From: Candidatus Daviesbacteria bacterium
GTDB taxonomy: Bacteria; Patescibacteriota; Microgenomatia; Daviesbacterales; UBA10151
Assembly: GCA_016176405.1 (NCBI GenBank)
Contig: JACOXG010000014.1
Coordinates: 1 to 47,704, forward strand
DNA length: 47,704 nt
Direction: 5' to 3'
This document shows positions 5,003 to 35,252 of this stretch, piece by piece. Positions within the stretch are counted from its first letter, which is position 1; each line of letters begins with the position of its first letter. Both the position numbers and the translations under genes were made by a program. The notes under the pieces were generated by a model, which searched no databases, was not told the DNA's origin, and was given only the letters and a program-made list of their open reading frames with translations.

Positions 5003-7669
5003 TTATCTCTTATCCTCAGTTTCATTAATCATCAGCCAATCAAAATCTATATCATTCTCAGCCTCCTTGGGAGAAGAAACTCGAAATCTCTTGCCTTTTT
5101 CCTTCTCGGTGACAGCCAAAACTAAATTAGTATTAGAGGTGGGGGTAATTAAAATCCTGGAAGTGGGCTCAACTAGCGGATTTTCTACATCTAAAAATGT
5201 CTGCCCAGCTAAAATCTTGCCTGAACCAGAGATTTTATTAGCCACCACTCTAAACTGCGCCACAGTCACCATTTCCGCTCTTAGATGACCATTCTTATCC
5301 ACTGTCACCAGACCATTAAACAAATCTAGCTGTTCTGCTAAGGGAGAATTTTGTAAATAAAGAGTGCCCATAGCATTAATAGAGTTTGTTGTCAAAGATA
5401 AAGATCCATCTACAACCAGCTCACCAGCCACCAGAGTATCTGCCAGGGTACTTTTCCCCAGTACCTTAAAATTATCAGCAATTTCAGCCTCGTAGGCGGT
5501 TAAAGCCCCTAAAATATTGGCATCAGAGGTAATATCAATATTAGCTAACTTAGCTGAATCTGTGGCCAGCAGGATATCAGGAGGGGTAAGATCAAGTTGT
5601 GATACGTCAGTCAATTCAGCAGACTGTGTAGATGTGAGAGGTGAGATATGGGAAGTGAGATCTTGAGGTGAGATATTTTGACTCTCACTTCCCACCTCAT
5701 TATCCAGCTTCTCATTTCCCACATCTAATTTCTCTTCTAACTCACTCATTCTTTCCTCCAGCGAGGCAATTTTACTCGATAGGTCAATCTCATCATTCAT
5801 CACCAGCTGATCAACCTTAATCTTTGGCATAAGCAGATTGCCTTGATCATCTAATGACAATGAGGCTAGAAAATTATTTGGATCAGCATAACCTACCCTC
5901 ACAAATACCAGGATTTTGCCACACTTCACCTCCGAGGTGAGCTGAGTTGATTCTTGGCACACCTCGGAGGTGGCGCCCTCAAAAGATTCCAGGGCTTTTC
6001 CCAATACTTCACCAGCTTGGGTGGCTTTCATAGCCACGCCTGGAATAGAAGATGAGGTTAAATAATCTCCTATCTCAATTGGCCCATTCTCCGCAGATAC
6101 CTTAATCAACACTCTTCCAGCCAAAGCCACTGGCTTTTGCCTGACAATTAAATCCATCCTGCTCAGATCATAACCTAAAACTGCTCCAGGTTTAGTAGAG
6201 ACCACTCCTAGCATTCTGTTGCCAGAATCCCTGGAGGCTTTTTGGACCATATAACTAATATTTTCTATATCAGAAGATATCAACTCAACCAGGTCCGCCT
6301 CCTCGACCCCCTCCTGAACAAAATACATCTCAGCCAGATCTGCTTGTCCGGAATAAATACCAGCATCAGAATAAACTGATCCGTCGGCTGTAATTTTAAA
6401 TTTGACTGTATCTGCCCCTGAGCCATTAGCAGTATCTGATTCAATGGTAAAAATATCTGCACTTGATATAGTTTGTTGTGAATCAATGTGCACTACAGGT
6501 AAAGATGACAAACCATCATCTACAATCACCAGCTTCCCTTCCACAGGTGTGGTTGTACCAATCCCCACATTACCCGTCGGGAATACAGCTGCAAAGTTAT
6601 ATTCAGCTCCAGAGGCCTGAGCTTGTAAACCAATGGCATAAGTGAGATTGGATCCGCCAGCTTGACCTTGGGCATTAAACAATCCTGCAAAAGCTTTCTG
6701 GAATCCTGAGGAAAGATCGACCGAAGATGTCATCCCATATAAACTGCCACCTTCGCTAAAACCATTATTGATCGTTAATCCACTATTAAAATACTGATTA
6801 GCAGACCAGTTATTAGAGTGACCCATCTCTAAAGAGATAGTTAATGCCTTCTGATCAGTTTTTATTCCTAAGGCTCCATCCTCATTCTTAATATCAGCAA
6901 TATAAGTTGAACTAATGGTTAAACAATCTTTACAACCAAGCTCTCCATTATTGATAATGAGGGGTGATTGGGCTGATTTTATAGATAAGCCTGATGGCTG
7001 AGGCTGGTAAATATAGGTGGTTTGAGGAGGTGGGCTAGTGGGAGTAGGAATAAGCTCAGTTTGGATTCCATAAACCCCACCCTGCAAAGATTCAACAGTA
7101 GCTGCTAATTTGTTGATTAGGCCTAATGCCTGTTGGACTTTTTGCTCTTGAGCATCCAAGTTCATTTTCATTAGTAAAGCTATTATCACTATTAAAGTGA
7201 TTATGGTGCCACTGGAAAAAATCTTCAGCCAGGGAGGAGAAAACTTATGAATCTGAGGCTGAATGTTGGTAGCTAGCTCAATGCCCAACTCGCTTTGCAC
7301 TCTTTTGATCTCTGATCTGGTGAAACGCCTGGCACCACCCTTGGTTCTTTGGCTGTCGATCAACCCCTTTTTAGTCCAGTTTCTTAAGGTATCCTTGGAT
7401 ATTCTCAACTCATGCGCTGCTTGAGACACGCTTAGTAATCCTCTTTGTACAGGCTTAGATAAATCTAATTCTTTCTTTAAAGCCAAAAGTTCCCAGCTGT
7501 TGTATCTTCTGGCCCCACCCGGTGTACGAGATGGAATTAACTTTCCTTGTTTTTCCCAATTCCTGAGAGTATCTGGAGAAACTTGTAAAATTTTGGCTGC
7601 CTTAGAAATAGAGATAAATCTCTTGCTTGCAAGGCCTGCATAGATTTTGGGCAAAGTGTTTTTAGGCAT
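5003..7669 (-). CDS. Two MerR-type HTH domains, TM helix, and fibre-like ectodomain with Peptidase_G2-like domain
   Basis: Start taken at MPKNTLPKIYAG. HTH1 'ISISKAAKILQVSPDTLRNWEKQGKLIPSRTPGGARRY'; HTH2 'LSVSQAAHELRISKDTLRNWTKKGLIDSQRTKGGARRF'; TM 'GTIITLIVIIALLMKM'; 'GNVGIGTTTP'; 'ADLAEMY...VALAGRVLIKVSAENGPIEIGDYLTSSSIPGVAMKAT'. Confidence 0.85.
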   Translation of the reverse strand: MPKNTLPKIYAGLASKRFISISKAAKILQVSPDTLRNWEKQGKLIPSRTPGGARRYNSWELLALKKELDLSKPVQRGLLSVSQAAHELRISKDTLRNWTKKGLIDSQRTKGGARRFTRSEIKRVQSELGIELATNIQPQIHKFSPPWLKIFSSGTIITLIVIIALLMKMNLDAQEQKVQQALGLINKLAATVESLQGGVYGIQTELIPTPTSPPPQTTYIYQPQPSGLSIKSAQSPLIINNGELGCKDCLTISSTYIADIKNEDGALGIKTDQKALTISLEMGHSNNWSANQYFNSGLTINNGFSEGGSLYGMTSSVDLSSGFQKAFAGLFNAQGQAGGSNLTYAIGLQAQASGAEYNFAAVFPTGNVGIGTTTPVEGKLVIVDDGLSSLPVVHIDSQQTISSADIFTIESDTANGSGADTVKFKITADGSVYSDAGIYSGQADLAEMYFVQEGVEEADLVELISSDIENISYMVQKASRDSGNRMLGVVSTKPGAVLGYDLSRMDLIVRQKPVALAGRVLIKVSAENGPIEIGDYLTSSSIPGVAMKATQAGEVLGKALESFEGATSEVCQESTQLTSEVKCGKILVFVRVGYADPNNFLASLSLDDQGNLLMPKIKVDQLVMNDEIDLSSKIASLEERMSELEEKLDVGNEKLDNEVGSESQNISPQDLTSHISPLTSTQSAELTDVSQLDLTPPDILLATDSAKLANIDITSDANILGALTAYEAEIADNFKVLGKSTLADTLVAGELVVDGSLSLTTNSINAMGTLYLQNSPLAEQLDLFNGLVTVDKNGHLRAEMVTVAQFRVVANKISGSGKILAGQTFLDVENPLVEPTSRILITPTSNTNLVLAVTEKEKGKRFRVSSPKEAENDIDFDWLMINETEDKR

Positions 7670-7738
7670 AAATCTTATGAAAAAGTTAGGAAAAATTAAT
7701 AGTCTATTTACAAAACCATAACTGGATTTTTTTGTCAA

Positions 7739-7777
7739 TAGATCATAAGTAGATCATTTTAAAAAGTGACTAGATCA
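7739..7777. promoter_or_regulatory. Three direct TAGATCA repeats upstream of the HTH-TM gene
   Basis: TAGATCA at 7739-7745, 7750-7756 and 7771-7777; start-to-start spacing 11 and 21 bp. Confidence 0.5.
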
Positions 7778-11097: not shown

Positions 11098-11925
<828 letters not shown>

Positions 11926-17375: not shown

Positions 17376-17445
17376 TTGACAAATCTATGCAAAACCCTTT
17401 ATGCTGAGTACATAATCTATGCAAAATACCTAGATTGCATAGATT
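17376..17445 (+). promoter_or_regulatory. Promoter with repeated operator-like sites upstream of the giant fibre gene
   Basis: TTGACA (17376-17381), 18-nt spacer, TATGCT (17400-17405). AATCTATGC at 17382 and 17414, inverted copy GCATAGATT at 17437. Confidence 0.6.
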
Positions 17446-17448
17446 TGA

Positions 17449-20400
17449 GCAGATTTAGCAGACGGACATCTAGAAAAAAGAGGCAAAATTACCCCTGTTC
17501 GCAGCGAGGGTGGGACCAGGCTTTACTCACTGGATCAACTCAGACAAATCAGCCCTGCCTCAGTTGAGGAGATTACCCCTACCCCTCCAACCACAGAGGA
17601 GCTACTAGAGAAAGCTTCTCAAGATTCTACCCCATCAGTTTTCCTAACAGATTCTTCCTTTGAGGAGCCTATCAAAGCTCAGGTTGACACCAAACAGCCT
17701 AGTAGCCAACCTCAGGTTGTAACCAAAAAATCCTTTTTCAACAGATCTCTGCTGACTACAGTTATCTCAGTTATTGCTCTATCCTTAACTCTGCTATTTA
17801 CTGGCTCTCGTTTGATTAATTTAGGTCAACAAGATCAATTTTCTCAAAGCAATATAGATATTGCCAAAAATTTTAGATTGTTAATGGAAAAACCAAAGCC
17901 TACTCCCCAACCTGAGGTCCTGGCCGTAACCACTGCTGCTGAATTTTTAGAAATTAACGCCGATACTCAAATAAATGGTGATCTATCTGTCAGAGATTGT
18001 ATCAATGGCATTGCCTTAGAGACAGCAACCACTACCGTTCCAGAGGGATGTATTCCATTAACAGTATCAGAAGCATCCACAATAGATCAAGACCTATCAC
18101 TGTCTTCTTCTCCCACCTTTGCCAGCATCAATTTATCAAATTCATCTGATCAAATAGTCTTTCAATCCGGTGGTCCAACTGGCACTTTAACTTGGACCCC
18201 TACTGATACCAGAACTATTACCCTACCTGATGCCACTACCACTTTGGTGGGAACTGATACTACTCAAACTTTAACCAACAAAACGCTTTCTGGCTCAAAT
18301 AACACTTTTTCTAATATTCCTAATTCTGCTTTATCTAATAATAAAATAACTGTTTCCGCAGGCACTAATTTAACTGGTGGTGGAGATGTATCTTTAGGTG
18401 GATCTACTACTTTAAGCTTAAAGGATTCCATCTCTTTATCCGGTACTCTGACAGTTTCTGGTGCCACAACTTTGTCTTCCACCCTAACAGTTTCAGGCAC
18501 CACCACTTTAAATGCAGTCACCTACACTTGGCCCTCCGCCCAAGGTTCCTCTGATACCTTTTTAGCTAACAATGGCTCAGGCACCTTGAGTTGGTCTGCT
18601 CTAACTTCTGCCGGAGGCTGGACAGATGATGGCACCACTGTTAGGCTGACCACCATCACTGATAATGTGGGCATTGGCACCACCTCCCCCTCTTATAAAT
18701 TGCATGTAGTTGGCAATGTGGGGGTAGGTGGATCATTAACTGTCACATCTGCTACCACCTTATCTGCCTACAGCCAATGTGCAGATCTGGCTAATGGAGG
18801 AAAATTAACTGTTGATTCATCTGGTAATTTGCTCTGTCAGGTAGATTCCACTGCCTCGTTATCCGGAGGAGCCACTGGCGGAGTAACATATTGGGATTCT
18901 CCCACCACAGTTTCCCAATCTGTGGCCAATTTTTATTGGGATTCCACCAACTTCAGATTGGGCATTGGCACTTCCTCTCCTGGTGATTCATTAATAGTAG
19001 CCTCAGGTAATGTGGGGATAGGGTTTACTACACCCACAGCAGCCTTACATGTAGTCCAAGTAAATGCTGCTAATGCTTTTAGGGTAGATGATGTGGCCAA
19101 TGATACCACCCCATTTATTATTGATCAAACTGGCAATGTGGGAATTGGCTTTACTACTGTTGGAGCAAAGCTTGATATTAAAGGGGGAATGCTATTTTTA
19201 GATAATGGAGATTTTAATGAAACTAGAGGTTTAAGATTTAGAAATGCCGCAAATGGTGTATCAGCTACCGGAGGAGGAATATATCAAGCAAATAATGATC
19301 AACTATACATTCAGGCTGGAAGTGGGAATTATATTAATTTTAGGAACTTTGCTAGTGGTCTTGGAGAAGATGTAGTAGGTATAAGTACTATTGGTCCAAG
19401 ATTTGCCATAGGAGCAGTTGGTGTTAGCCAGACCTCAACAATGATGGCAGTCTCTGGTAATGCAGGTATTGGCCTATCTTTTGCTGGGGCAGTTATTCCC
19501 GCTAATGGACTGGCTGTTCAGGGTAATGTGGGGATTGGGATTACTACTGCCAACTCCGTTCTTACTGTTAATGGTGGGGCTACTATTGGATCCTCATACA
19601 ATACCCTAGCTCCCACCAATGGATTATTAGTCCAAGGAAATGTGGGCATTGGCTGGACCTCACCTACTTCTCTACTCCATCTTCTTCAAACAAGCACTTT
19701 TCCTGCCTTCAGAATTGATGATGTGGCAGAAGATACCACTCCCTTTATCATCATGGATACAGGCAATGTAGGAATTGGTAATACTGCTCCAGCTTATGCT
19801 TTAGATGTAACTGGTAATGTGGGTGTTTCTCAATCCCTAACAGTCTCAACTGCTGCTATTCTAGACTCGCTTTCCGTTACCAAATCCATCTCCGCCGCCA
19901 CTTTAGGAACAACGGGTAATGTGGGAGTTGGCGGATCTTTATCTGTCAGCTCTGGAGTCAACTTATTATCTTCCCTAAATGTGACTGGCAATACTCAGCT
20001 TTCATCTGTGGCTGCCTCATCTAACGTCTATTTTACTGGTTTATCAGCCAGCTCAGGAAGCGCTCTCTGTCTTAATTCTGCAAATCAAGTGGTCACTTGT
20101 ACTGTAGGTACTGGTGGAGTCTCCGGATCAGGTTTTGCCGGAGGAGTAGCCTTTTTTGATGGTGCTTCTAATATTACTGCCAACCACAAGTTGTTTTGGA
20201 GTAACTCTGATGCCAGATTGGGAATTGGGACCTCCTCGCCCGGAGATTCATTAGTGGTGGCCTCAGGTAATGTGGGGATAGGGTTTACTACTCCTAAAGC
20301 CTCTTTACATATTGTCAACGCTAATGCTCAGGATTCATTTAGAGTAGAAGATCAGGCAGAAGATACTAGTACTCCTTTCGTGATTGATCAGGCTGGAAAT

Positions 20401-23400
20401 GTTGGTATTGGTACCTCAGTCCCCGGCAATTATAAATTAAATGTGAACGGGGCCAGCTGGTTAAATGGCAGTCTCAAGCTGGATTTAGGCTCAGATGCTA
20501 CCGGAGATGTCTACTATAGAGATTCAAATGGTAACTTTGTCAGACTGCCCATTGGTACTTCAGGACAAGCCTTAGGCATATCCGGGGGAATTCCGGCCTG
20601 GACAGCGGTGGAATCTTTTACTTCAGCTGCTGGTTGGGTTGATGCAGGAGCATATATTAGGCTTTTAACTATGGGAGATAATGTGGGGATTGGGACAACG
20701 GTGGCTCAAGATGCCATAGGAAAACTGCACTTAAGAGGTAATGATGATTCAACAGGTCTAACTTTTGTTACCACTAATAATGCTAACTCCGAATTTGGTT
20801 TAACTGTTTTAAATAATGGCAATGTAGGCATTGGCACTACAAATCCTCAAGGAGGATTAATTGTGGTGGCAGGTGCTGGTAATGTGGGAATTGGCACCTC
20901 AGAACCCGGAAACTATAGACTGACTGTTTTAGGAGATACCAGAATCTCCACAGATGGTATTTTTACTCTTAATTTAGGCTCAGATGCCACCGGTGATATC
21001 TATTATAGAAACTCTTCTGGCAATATTACCAGGTTACCAATAGGTAATTCAGGAGAGGCTCTAGGTGTTTCTAATGGCTTGCCAGTTTGGACTACTAATC
21101 TCTCCTTTACTTCAGCTGCTGGTTGGGTTGATGCAGGAGCATATATTAGGCTTTTAACTATGGGAGATAATGTGGGGATTGGGACCACGGTGGCACAAGA
21201 TCCCTATGCTAAATTACATATCAGAGCAAATGGGACTGGGACTGGTTTAGCCTTTCTGGTAGCTGATAATGACAATGTCCAAAGATTTGCCATCTTAGAT
21301 AATGGCAATGTTGGGATAGGGACAACCGGTCCTGGTGGAATATTAGTAGTGGCCTCTGGTAATGTGGGAGTAGGCTTTACCACCCCAGACAGAGTACTAC
21401 AACTAGCCTCAGATATTAATCTGGTCGGTTCTAATGCTTCCCTTTTGGCTGCCGGGGGAAGCCAATTTGGCATCACTGGTTCATCAGCCACCGGTACTCA
21501 GAAAAAATTAGTCTTAGGTATAGATACTACGGATAACTACGGAGTTATTCAGGCCGGAACCTTGGGTACTAATTATACTTTAGCCTTAAATCCGGCCGGA
21601 GGAAATGTCGGGATTGGCACTACCTCTCCCGCATATCCATTACATTCTTCAGGTAATCTAGGTATTGGTGAAAATATTGGTATTGGCATTACCTCCTCCA
21701 GCACTAGAGGCATCTATTTAGGATTAGCACCTCTTAATGTGGAATTAACCAGGGTTATTCCTAATGTGGTGAATGATTATGTAGACGTTGGACAAGTCAA
21801 TATGGCTAATGGAGCTCATAACTTCCGTATTAGTGTGACCAACTCTGATAATAGTTATTCTGTTTCCAAACAATATCTTGTGACCATAAACTATGATCAA
21901 ACCTCCAATACCTGGCAATGGGTGACTCCTATTTCTGATACAGGTGCTTTTTCTTCCAATAATCATGCCTTAATAGTTAATGTCAATGCTGCTATTGCCA
22001 CCTTTAGGTTGATTAGAACAGCTGGCACAACTGCTGGTACTGCCTATATTAGAATTGAATCAGTCGGACTAACAGCTGATACATTTACTGCTTTATCAAC
22101 TGTTGGTTCTATGACTGCCCCGACTGCTTATTTGGATAGTTCTGTTATCACTCAAACTGATGGTAGTTTAATAGTGGAAGGGAATATAGGGATAGGTTGG
22201 ACAGCAGCCACCCCTCCTGCCTTTCCCAGATTAGGATTATCTGTGTTTGGTAATATAGGAATTGGCATCACCACCGCTAATTCTGCTTTAACTATTAATG
22301 GTGGAGCCAGTATTGGATCTTCATTTAATGTGACTGCTCCTACTAATGGACTAATAGTTCAAGGTAATGTTGGAATAGGTGTCACCTCCCCCACTGCTTT
22401 TAATTTGCAAGTTGCCGGCACTATTGGACCAAATGCGGATGATACTTATGATTTGGGTTCTTCCTCTCTTAGATGGCGAGATCTTTATTTAGGTCCTTCT
22501 TCTTTAAATATAGTCTGTAATGCGGCGGAATGTTCTTCAGCCAGGACCTGGAATATTGGAGTCCAAGAAGCAGTTGGAGGCCAAGGTGGATTAAGAATAG
22601 GTTTATCTACTGCCAGGGATTTTCTTAATATTGATACTAATGGTAATGTAGGAATAGGAGCTTCTATTCCTCAGGGTAAACTGATTATTCAAGGTAATGT
22701 GGGAATAGGATATACCGGACTAAATCAGCTCATTCCAGCCAATGGTTTGGCTGTTTCAGGCAATGTAGGCATTGGGATTACTACAGCCAATTCTAATTTA
22801 GTCGTTGCTGGTAATGCTCACATCGGCACCATTTATCAGGGAATTTCTGCTCCCACCAATGGATTATTTGTAGATGGTAATGTGGGTATTGGGGCCACCA
22901 CTTCTTCTAATGCCTTAGATGTTTGGGGAGGAGCCAGAATTACCGGAACACTTACTATAGATGGATCTTGTACCGGCTGTGGAGGATTATCTGGTGGACA
23001 AAGTGGGGCTGTCACCTATTGGACTGGAGCCAATACGGTTTCTCAATCTGTGGCTAATTTTTACTGGGATTCTTCTAATAACCGGTTAGGCATTGGTACC
23101 TCTTCTCCAGGAGACTCACTAATAGTTGCTTCTGGTAATGTGGGAATTGGCGTTACCACACCTACTTCTCTGTTACAAATTAGTTTAGCTGCCACTGGCA
23201 CTTCTGTTAATTTATCATCAGCCGCCTCCTTAACTTCTGGGACAGCCTTTAATATCAGTGGCAACACTAGCGGCACCCTGTCCGCCTTCACTGGTGATTA
23301 TATTTTAATTAATCCCACCAGAACCTTAACATCAGGTTCAATTACTGACACAGGGAATTTCTTGGAGCTTAATAGATCCAACACCATTGATGGTGCGGCT

Positions 23401-26400
23401 GGTTTTACCCTCTCCGGCGATCTGGCCAGATTTACTTCCAATTGTATTGAAGCCTCAGGAACCTGTAATGATTCCTCCAGAATTTTGCTGCTGGCTCAAA
23501 ATTTCCCAGATGCCACCGGTCAGGCACTAGCTATAGATAATGCTGGATCAGGAGCATCTTTGGCCGTGATGAGAGGCAATGTCGGTATTGGTACCTCATC
23601 AACTTCAGGCGGATCATTAATTGTAGCATCAGGTAATGTGGGTATTGGCTTTACCAGTCCGCAAAGACCATTAATGGTGGCCTCAGATATTAATATTGTT
23701 GGATCTAATTCTTCTTTACTGGGAAACAATGGCAGCCAATTTGCCATCACCGGTTCATCTGGCACCGGCGGGACTGAGAAAAAATTGGTATTGGGAATTG
23801 ATACCACCGATAATTATGGGGTGATTCAGGCTGGAAATACTTCTGGGACTAATTATACTCTTTCTCTAAATCCTGCCGGAGGCAATGTTGGTATTGGTAC
23901 AACCATTCCTCTATATACCCTAGATGTGACAGGTAATGTTGGGATCTCACAATCATTAACTGTCTCTAATGTAATTGTAGCTAATGCCGGAATAAATGTA
24001 ACGGGTCTGGCTAATTTAACAGGAAATGTGGGGATTGGCGGATCATTAACACTTTCTACCTTTAAATCCTGCAATCAAGTTAAAACAGATTCTAGTGGAG
24101 TAGTTACTTGTGGGGTTGATGGAGGCTTAGAATCTGTTCAGGTATTTACCAGGGATAATCAAGGAGCTAATGCCTATAACGCTCCCTCAATTATTACCCA
24201 TATAGTGGTAGAACTGGTTGGTGGAGGTGGAGGTGGAGGTGGTACTGACGGAGGTGTTACCAAAGGTGGAGCTGGAGGAGGAGCAGGTGGATATTCTTCA
24301 GAGCTTTTGGAAAGTTTTTCTGCCAATGAGGATGTCACTGTTGGTGTGGGAGGTTCAGGAGGAATGCCAGTTGAGAGTACAGGTAGTGAACCTGGTGGAA
24401 CTGATGGAGGTACAACTTCTTTTGGTGACAGCGTCTATTTACAAGCCACAGGAGGTACTGGTGGAGCTCCAGGTCATGCTGTTGGGACGGCACAAGATGG
24501 TAATGGCGGTAGCGGAGGAATTGGCTCAGGTGGAGATATTAATCTAGGTGGGGGTGGAGGTGGTTTCGGAACGGGCACAGTAGTAACTGCATCTTTTTCA
24601 GGGTCAGGTGGTGCTTCCTATTTTGGCGGAGGGGGGGGAGGTGTTACTGAGGCAAATGTGGGTGGTCAACAACAAAATGGGGTTAATGGACTTGCTCCAG
24701 GCTCTGGAGGAGGTGGTGGTGCTGTTTTTAATGGTGTTGGTGCCACTGGTGGAAATGGGGCACAAGGTATAGTGATTGTCTGGGAATATTCTGGCAATGC
24801 TGGATCAGATTATGCTGAGTATTATGACACCGCCTCTGATGTGGAGGCAGCAGATCTGGTTTCAGTGTCTGATTACTCAATTACCATTGATCCAAAATCT
24901 TTAACTGATGGATTATCTAACCTGGCTGTTCTACAAAAAGCTAAGATTGGAGATTCTTTAATAGGAGTTGTTTCCACTTCTCCTGGACAAACCATAGGTC
25001 AGGAAATTGTGCCCTTTTCTAAACATCCTAAACCTATTGCCTTATCGGGTCGTGTTCCGGTTAAAGTTTCAACTGAAAGTGGTGCTATTAAAAAAGGTGA
25101 TAAGTTAACTGCCTCATCAATCCCAGGCGTGGCCATGAAATCCTTTAAGGCTGGCCAAATCATCGGTACTGCTTTGGAGGATTTTGATGGATCTTCCTGT
25201 GATCCACCGGATCCTCCACCCGAGGGATCAACAGATCCACCACCTATTTGTCAGGGTAAAATTAATGTTTTTATTAATACCTCCTATTCTGCAGGACTAC
25301 GGACCGCGGAGCTTTTGGCTAAACAGGGGCTTGATATAGATAATCTTGCCGAAGGATTAGATGTGGGTAAAATACTCCTTGCTCAACTGCTTATTGAGAA
25401 AAAAGATATTGTTGATCAAACTAAAGTTGCAGAAGTAGCCACAGACAGGCTGATTGCCGGTTTAGAGGTAATCACTCCCAGGGTAGTGGCAAATGAGGTG
25501 GTAGTGGATAAAATCTCACCAGTTTCAGATTCGGGGATGATTTATCTGGACGGCAATTTAGGTATTGGCGGATCAGGCTTTTTGGGAATCCAGGATAACA
25601 ATATTGTTCTAGGTTCGGAAACAGAAACTAATTTAGCCTTTAAAACCAATAATAATATAGTAGTGACCATTGATACTTTAGGTAATCTAGAGGCAGAGGG
25701 CAGTGTGATTGCTCCATCAATTGTCACATCTGAAATAGAAATTGCCTCTGACTCTGCCAAACTGGCTGTTAAAAATGATCTGGGAGAGGAAATTTTTAGC
25801 TTAGATAAGGAAGGCAATTTGAAAACTAAACTGGTTAAGGCAGATAAACTCTTAATACCTGCTGGTACTAATTTAGCACTTGACCCATCTACCTCTATCC
25901 TATCTTATGAATCTACTCTGCTGGCCAATGGTGACACTTCATATGAGGTAGACGTCTATCAATCACTCAAGAATTTGGAGGAAAAGGTGGTTGCTTTAGA
26001 AGATCAAGTACATGACATAGCTGGATCAGAAGCTACATCTTCAGCCGAGCTGGCTGATGATACATACTACGACTTGGATCAGGAGTTGGCTTCGCTTGAT
26101 TTGACACCTCCAGAAATCCTCCTGGCTTCTGGTTCAGCTCAACTGGATGAACTGTATGTTGGATCTGATGCAGCTATTGAGGGGACATTAATCGCTTACA
26201 ATACAGAAATTCAAAACCAGTTCCAGGTCTTTGGCACTACCACCCTCTCAGATACTTTGATTGCCGGAAACTTTACAGTTGATGGTACATTATCGATTGA
26301 AAATGGTTCTGAGATTAATGTTTTGGGGACTCTATTTTTACAAAAATCCATCCTGGCAGATAGCTTAGACATCTTTGATGGAAAAGTGATTATTGATAAA

Positions 26401-26724
26401 GATGGCGCAATTAGAGCCACCTCCATCACAGCTGACCAGTTTAAGATTAATGACGGGCAATCAGCAGGAATTGGCAAAATCTTGGCAGGACAAACAGAAG
26501 TAATCATAGAAAATCCTTATGTATCAGATACCTCTGTTATTGTGACCACCCCCAATGTACCACTGACTCAAACCATTGCTGTGACAGATAAAGTCAAGGG
26601 TCAGTTCTTTACTGTCAAGATCGCCGAGCCTGAATCTTTGGATATTCCATTTGATTACCTAATAATTGGCATAAGTCAAGAGACCCCGGCTCCCATTAGT
26701 CAGAGTCCAGGCGGTGGAACTTGA
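17449..26724 (+). CDS. Giant surface fibre protein: MerR-like remnant, TM, NVGIG repeats, Gly-rich region, Peptidase_G2-like domain
   Basis: The track ORF starts at TTG 17812, but the same frame is open from 17449 and encodes 'LEKRGKITPVRSEGGTRLYSLDQLRQ...' then TM 'LLTTVISVIALSLTLLFTG'. Roughly 30 'NVGIGxTxP' units; 'GSDYAEYYD...IALSGRVPVKVSTESGAIKKGDKLTASSIPGVAMKS'. N-terminus has no canonical start codon. Confidence 0.85.
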   Translation, partial: ADLADGHLEKRGKITPVRSEGGTRLYSLDQLRQISPASVEEITPTPPTTEELLEKASQDSTPSVFLTDSSFEEPIKAQVDTKQPSSQPQVVTKKSFFNRSLLTTVISVIALSLTLLFTGSRLINLGQQDQFSQSNIDIAKNFRLLMEKPKPTPQPEVLAVTTAAEFLEINADTQINGDLSVRDCINGIALETATTTVPEGCIPLTVSEASTIDQDLSLSSSPTFASINLSNSSDQIVFQSGGPTGTLTWTPTDTRTITLPDATTTLVGTDTTQTLTNKTLSGSNNTFSNIPNSALSNNKITVSAGTNLTGGGDVSLGGSTTLSLKDSISLSGTLTVSGATTLSSTLTVSGTTTLNAVTYTWPSAQGSSDTFLANNGSGTLSWSALTSAGGWTDDGTTVRLTTITDNVGIGTTSPSYKLHVVGNVGVGGSLTVTSATTLSAYSQCADLANGGKLTVDSSGNLLCQVDSTASLSGGATGGVTYWDSPTTVSQSVANFYWDSTNFRLGIGTSSPGDSLIVASGNVGIGFTTPTAALHVVQVNAANAFRVDDVANDTTPFIIDQTGNVGIGFTTVGAKLDIKGGMLFLDNGDFNETRGLRFRNAANGVSATGGGIYQANNDQLYIQAGSGNYINFRNFASGLGEDVVGISTIGPRFAIGAVGVSQTSTMMAVSGNAGIGLSFAGAVIPANGLAVQGNVGIGITTANSVLTVNGGATIGSSYNTLAPTNGLLVQGNVGIGWTSPTSLLHLLQTSTFPAFRIDDVAEDTTPFIIMDTGNVGIGNTAPAYALDVTGNVGVSQSLTVSTAAILDSLSVTKSISAATLGTTGNVGVGGSLSVSSGVNLLSSLNVTGNTQLSSVAASSNVYFTGLSASSGSALCLNSANQVVTCTVGTGGVSGSGFAGGVAFFDGASNITANHKLFWSNSDARLGIGTSSPGDSLVVASGNVGIGFTTPKASLHIVNANAQDSFRVEDQAEDTSTPFVIDQAGNVGIGTSVPGNYKLNVNGASWLNGSLKLDLGSDATGDVYYRDSNGNFVRLPIGTSGQALGISGGIPAWTAVESFTSAAGWVDAGAYIRLLTMGDNVGIGTTVAQDAIGKLHLRGNDDSTGLTFVTTNNANSEFGLTVLNNGNVGIGTTNPQGGLIVVAGAGNVGIGTSEPGNYRLTVLGDTRISTDGIFTLNLGSDATGDIYYRNSSGNITRLPIGNSGEALGVSNGLPVWTTNLSFTSAAGWVDAGAYIRLLTMGDNVGIGTTVAQDPYAKLHIRANGTGTGLAFLVADNDNVQRFAILDNGNVGIGTTGPGGILVVASGNVGVGFTTPDRVLQLASDINLVGSNASLLAAGGSQFGITGSSATGTQKKLVLGIDTTDNYGVIQAGTLGTNYTLALNPAGGNVGIGTTSPAYPLHSSGNLGIGENIGIGITSSSTRGIYLGLAPLNVELTRVIPNVVNDYVDVGQVNMANGAHNFRISVTNSDNSYSVSKQYLVTINYDQTSNTWQWVTPISDTGAFSSNNHALIVNVNAAIATFRLIRTAGTTAGTAYIRIESVGLTADTFTALSTVGSMTAPTAYLDSSVITQTDGSLIVEGNIGIGWTAATPPAFPRLGLSVFGNIGIGITTANSALTINGGASIGSSFNVTAPTNGLIVQGNVGIGVTSPTAFNLQVAGTIGPNADDTYDLGSSSLRWRDLYLGPSSLNIVCNAAECSSARTWNIGVQEAVGGQGGLRIGLSTARDFLNIDTNGNVGIGASIPQGKLIIQGNVGIGYTGLNQLIPANGLAVSGNVGIGITTANSNLVVAGNAHIGTIYQGISAPTNGLFVDGNVGIGATTSSNALDVWGGARITGTLTIDGSCTGCGGLSGGQSGAVTYWTGANTVSQSVANFYWDSSNNRLGIGTSSPGDSLIVASGNVGIGVTTPTSLLQISLAATGTSVNLSSAASLTSGTAFNISGNTSGTLSAFTGDYILINPTRTLTSGSITDTGNFLELNRSNTIDGAAGFTLSGDLARFTSNCIEASGTCNDSSRILLLAQNFPDATGQALAIDNAGSGASLAVMRGNVGIGTSSTSGGSLIVASGNVGIGFTSPQRPLMVASDINIVGSNSSLLGNNGSQFAITGSSGTGGTEKKLVLGIDTTDNYGVIQAGNTSGTNYTLSLNPAGGNVGIGTTIPLYTLDVTGNVGISQSLTVSNVIVANAGINVTGLANLTGNVGIGGSLTLSTFKSCNQVKTDSSGVVTCGVDGGLESVQVFTRDNQGANAYNAPSIITHIVVELVGGGGGGGGTDGGVTKGGAGGGAGGYSSELLESFSANEDVTVGVGGSGGMPVESTGSEPGGTDGGTTSFGDSVYLQATGGTGGAPGHAVGTAQDGNGGSGGIGSGGDINLGGGGGGFGTGTVVTASFSGSGGASYFGGGGGGVTEANVGGQQQNGVNGLAPGSGGGGGAVFNGVGATGGNGAQGIVIVWEYSGNAGSDYAEYYDTASDVEAADLVSVSDYSITIDPKSLTDGLSNLAVLQKAKIGDSLIGVVSTSPGQTIGQEIVPFSKHPKPIALSGRVPVKVSTESGAIKKGDKLTASSIPGVAMKSFKAGQIIGTALEDFDGSSCDPPDPPPEGSTDPPPICQGKINVFINTSYSAGLRTAELLAKQGLDIDNLAEGLDVGKILLAQLLIEKKDIVDQTKVAEVATDRLIAGLEVITPRVVANEVVVDKISPVSDSGMIYLDGNLGIGGSGFLGIQDNNIVLGSETETNLAFKTNNNIVVTIDTLGNLEAEGSVIAPSIVTSEIEIASDSAKLAVKNDLGEEIFSLDKEGNLKTKLVKADKLLIPAGTNLALDPSTSILSYESTLLANGDTSYEVDVYQSLKNLEEKVVALEDQVHDIAGSEATSSAELADDTYYDLDQELASLDLTPPEILLASGSAQLDELYVGSDAAIEGTLIAYNTEIQNQFQVFGTTTLSDTLIAGNFTVDGTLSIENGSEINVLGTLFLQKSILADSLDIFDGKVIIDKDGAIRATSITADQFKINDGQSAGIGKILAGQTEVIIENPYVSDTSVIVTTPNVPLTQTIAVTDKVKGQFFTVKIAEPESLDIPFDYLIIGISQETPAPISQSPGGGT
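24208..24786 (+). other. Glycine-rich tail-fibre/adhesin-like segment inside the giant ORF
   Basis: '[34 protein letters not shown]...GGGGGGFGTG...GGGGGAVFNGVGATGGNGAQGIVIVWEY'. Confidence 0.7.
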
Positions 26725-33275: not shown

Positions 33276-34577
33276 TCAATTGTCAAGATTGTGCTTGAAC
33301 TGTCTTTTCTCCCAAAGGTAATTGGGATTAGAGGAATCATCCTCTGAAACCTTGGAAAACTTCCTCATCCTTAAACCTGCTGGCAGGAAGGCTAGAACTG
33401 TCCAGGCCAATAATGGTAATCCAGTTTTAGGCAGTTCTTTAACTCCCAGTACTTGACCAGTCACGACTACAGGAGCAGTACCTCCCACGCCTACATTGAC
33501 ACTTCCCCCAGTGGCAGAAGAGGTAGATGAGCTAGTGCTGCTAGAAGAGCTGGTGGAAGAGGAGGTATTAGTTATGTTGATAGGATTGTTATTAACATTA
33601 TTGTTTGTATTAATAATTTGGACACAAACAATCGTATTACCGCTAAATGCTACTTGAAAGCCCTCTGGACATTGTAGTGTTGGTCCAGGTGTAGCAGTTG
33701 GAGTCGGGGTCGGAGTTGGTGTTGGTGTTGGTGTAGGTGTAGGTGTTGGGGTAGGAGTAGCGCTAGGTGTTGGTATTGGTGTTGGAGTAGGAGTAGGCGT
33801 AGGGGTCGGGGTAGGAGTAGCGCTAGGTGTGGGTGTTGGAGTTGGAGTTGGTGTTGGTGTTGGAGTGGGTGCAGATGTAGGTGTTGGGGTAGGAGTGGGT
33901 GTGGGGGTTGGTGTTGGAGTAGGAGTAGGTTGCATAAGAGCAAAGTTTGCCACACAGTCAACATCAGCAGCTGATTGTCTACCATCTGAGGTGAAGAAAT
34001 AACCATTAACCTGAATATGAACAGGCACTTGCCCACCCCAGTTATTATCAGGACGTGCTACTTCTGCATAACTGAATGTTCTACTATCTGTAGTTCTGGC
34101 TGTTGAATATTCATTAGTTGGTAGATAGTGATTTGAACCCTCATAATAAATAGGCCTTGGTCCAGTTGCTGAATCAGTATTATCATTATTATAGAAAGCA
34201 TACATAAACTTGGTCACAGGAGTGTTGGCAATGGTGGTGACAGTGACTGATTCACCTGGGTTAACCACAGCTCTATCTTCATAGGTAGTCACACAAAGAT
34301 CAGGTCTGGCTGGAGGCGGTGGTGGAGGTGGTGGTTCATCTGGCGGCTCATCTGGTGGCCATGGTGTAGGTTCTGGTGTAGGAGGTGGTGGTGGAGGTGG
34401 TGGTTCCACGGGTGGACAGGGTTGATCAGCACATTCCTCAGCTAATACAGCTCCCCCTCCTTGTCCAAAACTAGGAGAAAGAAAACCAGCTTGAGCTCCC
34501 ATAAAAAGAACTAGGGCTGATAACCCTATTAATGAGTATTTTGCAAATTTGGTTAAGAAAACAGTATTTGCATTCAT
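33276..34577 (-). CDS. Secreted (Pro-Thr)n stalk protein with LPKTG sorting-type C-terminus
   Basis: Signal peptide, Pro-rich segments, long PTPTPT tract, then '[30 protein letters not shown]'. Confidence 0.8.
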
Positions 34578-34971: not shown

Positions 34972-35017
34972 GGGCATTGCTATTCGAGTCCGTCTGCGGT
35001 AGTAATGCTCTTTTTTT
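34972..35017 (+). terminator. Hairpin plus T7 terminator-like element
   Basis: GGGCATTGCTA...TAGTAATGCTC (G-U tolerant stem) followed by TTTTTTT. Confidence 0.55.
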
Positions 35018-35208: not shown

Positions 35209-35252
35209 AAAAAGACAGTAGGAAGTCCGTCTGCCTCTTCCTACTGTCTTTA
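35209..35252 (-). terminator. Strong intrinsic-terminator hairpin downstream of the 44-aa ORF
   Basis: Minus strand AAAGACAGTAGGAAG-(loop with GCAGACGGACT)-CTTCCTACTGTCTTTTTT. Confidence 0.75.

Follow-up and report, generated by a model that had tools for sequence, protein, structure and literature searches.

The reading frame at 5003-7669 and its domains

The window, a stretch of 47,704 nucleotides, belongs to the 0.95-Mb draft genome (33 contigs, 94% complete) of a tiny, uncultured bacterium, whose closest named relatives are Daviesbacteria (Microgenomates group, Patescibacteria). It contains a long reading frame with the following parts:

5003-7669, minus strand: HTH-HTH-TM-fibre ORF, 888 aa from an ATG, stop-free frame; an alternative upstream TTG start lies at 7738
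7472-7621, minus strand: HTH1, residues 17-66, winged HTH of the BldC/MerR type (Pfam MerR, NCBIfam BldC-type, PDB 6amk/6ama (BldC))
7295-7441, minus strand: HTH2, residues 77-125, second winged HTH of the BldC/MerR type (Pfam, NCBIfam)
7172-7228, minus strand: predicted single TM helix, residues 148-166 (Kyte-Doolittle hydropathy 2.3 over 19 aa)
5870-6349, minus strand: predicted domain akin to the C-terminal (Peptidase_G2-type) domain of phi29 gp12, about residues 441-600 (PDB profile match; Foldseek on a low-confidence model)
5012-5245, minus strand: C-terminal beta-sandwich tip, tailspike/lectin-like, about residues 809-886 (AlphaFold2 and Foldseek, weak E-values)

Residues are numbered from the ATG, which corresponds to subtraction of 28 from the positions in the stop-to-stop frame of 916 codons.

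Pfam MerR matched the protein twice (E = 1.2e-23), with the best stretch at 20-56 and a second copy at about 78-124. The NCBIfam BldC-type model also matched in two stretches (E = 8.6e-19); its score of 67.1 bits is below the model cut-off of 77, and for this reason the protein is not filed as a BldC member. The closest solved structures to the HTHs are nevertheless those of BldC (PDB 6amk/6ama, E 2.4e-4), and the MerR-like winged HTH carries contact residues of the BldC type: in HTH1, N is found at the position of BldC Arg30, W at that of Trp31, and R at that of Arg47/Arg48. The classical MerR layout is absent, since no dimerisation helix directly follows HTH1 (HTH2 and then the TM helix do) and Pfam reported no effector domain. 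The initial annotation had described tandem HTHs, one TM helix and a fibre-type ectodomain within a single ORF, and this description is borne out by Pfam and NCBIfam, by hydropathy and by the profile matches.

The region following the TM helix includes the motif NVGIGTTTP. Profile comparison of the gp12-like region with the PDB retrieved the C-terminal domain of phi29 gp12 (6qz9, E = 0.0014; 3gqh, 0.0025; 3suc, 0.0066). D444 and E447 align with the first residues past the gp12 cleavage point, and D444 is invariant in an alignment of six sequences. Pfam and NCBIfam searches of the 888-aa protein found no ectodomain family and no Peptidase_G2 match; the earlier label "Peptidase_G2-like" is supported remotely, by the profile match in the PDB (E about 1e-3). 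The AlphaFold2 model of this region is poor (pLDDT 52.7, 6 sequences). Input to folding was confined to sequences of the window and of its related loci. Foldseek placed phi29 gp8.5 first (E 8.6e-4) and gave 3suc with an E of 0.11, a ranking that, because of the poor model, we take just as backing for the independent profile match.

For the tip, AlphaFold2 reached a pLDDT of about 72-89 over most of its length. Foldseek matched it locally, with weak E-values and probabilities of 0.93-1.0, to the receptor-binding domain of the Pam1 tailspike (E 0.024), the R2 pyocin fibre and H-type lectins; searching the PDB with a profile of the C-terminal region gave no match. PHROGs matches fall on the HTHs, except marginal ones at 624-691. 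In a homologue of 4397 aa (L084 6427-19617), a Laminin_G_3 domain of the concanavalin A-like lectin type was identified (E = 7e-28), supporting a putative adhesive role for the ectodomains.

Distribution and predicted topology

We collected 84 HTH-TM-fibre proteins from 67 genomes. Two HTH copies are present in 34 of them, one in 49 and three in a single protein. The frame is complete in 42 of the 84 (median 1718 codons), and the longest frame comprises 5314 codons. Within the family, matches to some portion of the 888-aa protein are present in 40 of 45 genomes. The loci with an HTH match include 44 intact HTH ORFs, and in every one of these a hydrophobic segment follows the HTHs. At the class level, 281 genomes were sampled and 83 of them gave an HTH match at E ≤ 1e-7; most of these matches lie at an end of frames that are 400-5314 codons long. 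The 40 loci from outside the family, which were picked among long frames only, have the same domain order, one of them being just below the hydropathy threshold. Among 380 genomes sampled across the phylum, 35 match; some of these belong to other classes and have frames of 700-2863 codons.

A syntenic orthologue of 929 aa (L016 6001-8790, 43% identity) has the same neighbours, leuS, SprT-like, ComEA, ComEC and ArgS, in conserved order. Two slots recur within the family, one beside leuS, where the 5003-7669 gene is located, and one directly downstream of the ATP synthase operon. Both are occupied in the window, the second by a giant frame (17449-26721). In many relatives the gene continues past the end of the contig, as is common for repetitive genes, which could hint at a chance fusion, a misassembly or an over-long frame. 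The same architecture in 67 independent genomes, the syntenic orthologues and the stop-free frames make such an artefact extremely improbable. A search of the open-licence literature found no description of the HTH-TM-fibre family, which is in itself not proof of novelty.

The initial annotation had made its reading dependent on a TM segment, and hydropathy identifies one hydrophobic segment in the 888-aa protein (residues 148-166). Among the 84 homologues, 83 have a TM segment after the HTH, i.e., a 19-aa window with a hydropathy of at least 1.6; this count alone is not a strong test, as 40% of composition-shuffled regions also pass the threshold, the TM residues being part of the shuffled pool. 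The positive-inside bias is weak (K+R 2.5 versus 1.85; 1 versus 2 in the 888-aa protein itself). From hydropathy together with domain logic we infer a single-pass topology of the 888-aa protein with the N-terminus inside.

The HTH type covaries with the upstream DNA of its own gene

According to the wing and to the residue equivalent to BldC Arg30, we classed the HTHs into the types N30, GTRLY, GNQRR and GKNR, the 888-aa protein being of the N30 type, and counted motifs in the upstream 160 bp of each gene. TTCCTA is present upstream of 12 of 16 genes for N30 HTHs, ATCTATG upstream of 18 of 25 with the GTRLY wing, TGGACA upstream of 13 of 22 with the GNQRR wing, and a CCTATG palindrome upstream of 5 of 12 with the GKNR wing. 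Each motif is rare (at most a few cases) or absent in the remaining HTH types, and about a third of the genes have no recognised class motif. Fisher tests restricted to a single gene per genus and type gave p values of 1.4e-6 (N30), 1.1e-6 (GTRLY), 3.9e-6 (GNQRR) and 1.8e-5 (GKNR).

Three comparisons served as controls for shared ancestry. When upstream regions were swapped among paralogues within a genome, the association dropped in all but 1 of 5000 trials. In the leuS slot, AATCTA[TG]G is present in 0 of 7 N30 genes versus 3 of 3 GTRLY genes. Outside the family, the motifs derived from inside it recurred with the expected type (TTCCTA 4/5 versus 1/35; palindrome 3/5 versus 0/35).

The HTH columns that best predict the operator class correspond to BldC positions 26, 45, 30 and 46. 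Since motifs A and B were first noticed after grouping by HTH residue 30, the test on this column is partly circular; the within-genome swap, the out-of-family test and a motif-free test are less so. In the motif-free test the upstream DNA is predicted best by the columns of BldC 46, 48, 13, 26 and 15; all column scores are inflated by sequence relatedness. In the structure of BldC on DNA (PMC5859096), positions 15, 26, 30, 46 and 48 contact the DNA. Columns 27, 29, 31 and 47 are near-invariant, with equivalents of T27 in 83, of W31 in 80 and of R47 in 78 of the 84 proteins, so the lack of DNA-contact residues that the initial annotation had named as an argument against its reading is not observed. 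Sequence evidence from 67 genomes, computational and indirect, indicates that the HTH recognises the promoter of its own fibre gene.

The order of HTH, TM helix and beta-rich ectodomain is shared with RodZ, the HTH of which binds MreB and not DNA, and the HTHs could by analogy be protein-interaction or cytoskeletal anchors instead of DNA binders. Considering the conserved DNA-contact residues and the covariation of the HTH with its own operator, we regard this as very unlikely, and a RodZ-like role was rejected on the basis of the covariation.

Candidate operator and promoter of the 5003-7669 gene

The DNA upstream of the ATG contains the following elements:

7670-7699, minus strand: conserved candidate operator of 11-bp direct repeats (TTTTTCCTAACTTTTTCATAAGATTT), immediately preceding the ATG (upstream comparison of homologues)
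7733-7738, minus strand: -35-like TTGACA, recognised by sequence (TTGAC[ATG] is found upstream of 15 of 16 N30-class genes)
7739-7777, plus strand: three TAGATCA repeats abutting the upstream side of the -35, clustered locally and not conserved as an operator

In the N30 and GTRLY classes the candidate operators consist of direct repeats of 10-11 bp; in the GKNR class palindromes take their place. The GTRLY operator consists of AATCTATG direct repeats at +7/+17/+39/+63 relative to the -35, and N30 operators are mostly located at +36 to +66.

The initial annotation had proposed to assay binding of the HTHs on the repeats at 7739-7777, which are copies of TAGATCA. This cluster is real and represents the sole triple in the 952-kb genome, but the conserved operator lies elsewhere, at 7670-7699. 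No overrepresentation of the seven-mer TGATCTA/TAGATCA was found upstream of homologues, and TAGATCA was rejected as the conserved operator on this ground; the cluster could serve as an additional local site.

The N30 operator pattern has a single exact match genome-wide (7676-7690), just before the ATG of its own gene. In four relatives 2/2, 2/3, 1/2 and 1/2 of the exact matches lie at the orthologue. The GTRLY operator showed one match per genome in four genomes, always in the promoter of its own fibre gene, while the reversed control gave none. A search of the window genome with the GTRLY pattern gave no match, because the second copy before the giant paralogue is differently placed. As far as the sequence tells, the protein would be a dedicated autoregulator and not a global one.

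This bears on the proposal of the initial annotation that the fibre could tether the chromosome. Tethering as such is possible, and RacA, which is MerR-like, anchors the chromosome; the NCBIfam RacA match to the 888-aa protein is very weak. An operator that is near-unique per genome favours a dedicated regulator of the own gene, and sites found essentially only at the own promoter are too few for a general chromosome-to-membrane tether, to which we give very little credence.

The giant paralogue and other features of the window

The second slot of the window comprises two features:

17449-26721, plus strand: giant paralogous fibre frame of 3091 codons with an HTH remnant, a TM segment and a homologous C-terminal half
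17382-17445, plus strand: AATCTATG-type operator copies before the giant paralogue (17382-17389, 17414-17421 and, inverted, 17438-17445), with a -35 TTGACA at 17376-17381

The GTRLY-type operator and the leader are present, but at 17440-17490 neither a start codon nor the initial half of the HTH is found. Among the listed in-frame starts the earliest, a TTG at 17812, lies past the TM segment. The missing part reflects either a deletion or an assembly fault. A further HTH-HTH-TM-fibre paralogue of the GKNR type is encoded on contig C22 of the same genome (L074 1-2394) and has its own palindromic operator, ACCTATGCATTGGTTAACCAATACGTAGG.

The leaders of 15 of 25 GTRLY-type fibre genes contain GCAGACGG (shuffled mean 0.04), and within the window this leader element is located at 17458-17466, 34989-34997 and 35226-35234. 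GCAGACGGA occurs 5-12 times per genome versus 0-3 times for the reversed control; in the window it is also found upstream of a proline-rich, surface-type ORF (33276-34577).

The first gene (11110-11925, plus strand) of the F-type ATPase operon, which extends to 17241, encodes a signal-peptide-like protein that shares the gp12-like domain with the fibre. Its product has a subunit-c-like hairpin (GRNP loop), in which the helix-2 carboxylate is apparently missing. Neither subunit a (PF00119) nor a canonical subunit c was found in the 94%-complete draft genome. This c-like fusion is kept in most genomes of the family and shows a weak match to NCBIfam MPN157. Possibly, the F1 motor is not coupled to ion flow.

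The fibre as a probable regulator of its own gene

We consider it likely that the 888-aa protein combines a surface fibre with a membrane-tethered regulator of the fibre's own gene, and that this regulator is most probably an autorepressor. The sequences themselves show how the protein is built, that this architecture is conserved and that the HTH type covaries with the own operator. With the N-terminus inside, a cytoplasmic tandem BldC/MerR-type module would be followed by the TM helix and a long fibre-type ectodomain, which includes the phi29 gp12-like domain and ends in a receptor-binding-type tip. The HTHs would bind the direct-repeat operator in the own promoter or leader and, when bound, most likely repress the own gene, so that fibre already present in the membrane would limit further synthesis. 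Such a circuit may serve to keep the number of fibres constant or to replace lost fibres.

Autorepression is the best reading because the candidate operators occupy the spacer or closely follow the promoter, as sites of repression usually do. This position suggests repression and does not prove it, since MerR-type proteins can activate from the spacer. The tethered HTHs could also act positively by capturing the gene at the membrane, and activate transcription or couple it to insertion of the giant fibre during translation (self-transertion). A precedent is VtrA/VtrB, a membrane-bound HTH regulator that catches its target locus at the membrane (PMC9977878). In addition, the products are very long exported proteins, and the GTRLY operators lie within the -35/-10 spacer, as with MerR activators. 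However, MerR activators require a long promoter spacer, and that of the GTRLY promoters is about 18 bp; moreover, three of the four operator classes are mainly located past the -10, in a position from which a bound protein usually prevents initiation. We consider self-transertion unlikely.

Autorepression could be extended to a membrane transcription factor that responds to signals: contact with a host surface, loss of the ectodomain, or release of the HTHs by a separate intramembrane protease would alter DNA binding and fibre expression. The domain order is like that of known transmembrane transcription regulators (PMC10269533), and the tailspike/lectin-type parts of the ectodomain, together with the Laminin_G_3 domain of the 4397-aa homologue, are in agreement with this idea. 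A signal from the fibre that alters HTH-DNA binding is possible, but the sequence demonstrates none and no switch is evident in it; furthermore, the gp12-like domain would cut outside and the HTHs would stay tethered. We put this extension forward tentatively and rate it as less likely than not.

For the autorepressor, a broader generalisation appears slightly favoured: giant fibres across a class of Patescibacteria, and sporadically across the phylum, would each be a membrane-bound repressor of their own gene. The two to three paralogues per cell would have mutually insulated HTH-operator pairs, and the state or number of fibres would be read out at one promoter without a separate regulator.

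According to a passage in PMC12206443, all cultivated Patescibacteria live attached to other microbes. These bacteria have very few regulators with which to set the expression of their surface proteins, and here a structural surface protein appears to bear its own DNA-binding domain, in a self-regulating design that would be conserved over a whole class. Since the operator is predictable from the HTH type, the hypothesis can be tested in vitro without culturing the organism. The roughly 80 natural HTH-operator pairs also provide a resource on the specificity of the BldC/MerR fold.

Comparison with known systems

The HTH fold, the contact residues and the candidate operators, direct repeats of about one helical turn, are like those of BldC (PMC5859096), and the tandem HTHs resemble the head-to-tail BldC pair joined covalently. 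BldC, however, is soluble and has 68 residues, whereas one to three HTH copies are here attached to a predicted membrane fibre; the operator sequences also differ from those of BldC, and one class is palindromic.

The likeness to the phi29 gp12 pre-neck appendage is a remote match that extends from the cleavage junction into the next beta domain, with D..E conserved. In gp12 the domain is C-terminal and cleaved off, while the domain predicted here is located mid-protein and followed by more fibre.

In eukaryotic MYRF a DNA-binding domain, a tailspike-type domain and a TM are likewise found in one protein (PMC8326128). The autocleaving tailspike-type domain of MYRF (ICA domain with a Ser-Lys dyad) lies between the DNA-binding domain and the TM, and its cleavage frees the DNA-binding part (PMC8326128). 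The analogy to MYRF drawn in the initial annotation fails topologically, as the gp12-like domain is located beyond the TM (order HTH-TM-G2-like). Because this domain would be outside, cleavage at A443/D444 would shed only the distal half or fibre tip and not free the HTHs; the MYRF mechanism was rejected on account of this domain order.

A transmembrane transcription regulator is defined by a DNA-binding domain and at least one TM region in the same protein (PMC10269533), an architecture that the 888-aa protein has according to the Pfam HTHs and hydropathy. The text of this survey mentions neither Patescibacteria nor the MerR family. Like ToxR, CadC, TcpP and VtrA (PMC10269533), the protein would be single-pass, with a cytoplasmic HTH, a TM helix and an extracytoplasmic domain, and would bind DNA from the membrane. 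It differs in its ectodomain, a predicted fibre of hundreds to thousands of residues, and in its apparent target, which is its own gene. Regulators of the ToxR type typically sense with their ectodomain and act on other genes. The proteins described here would extend membrane-bound transcription factors to giant adhesin-like proteins.
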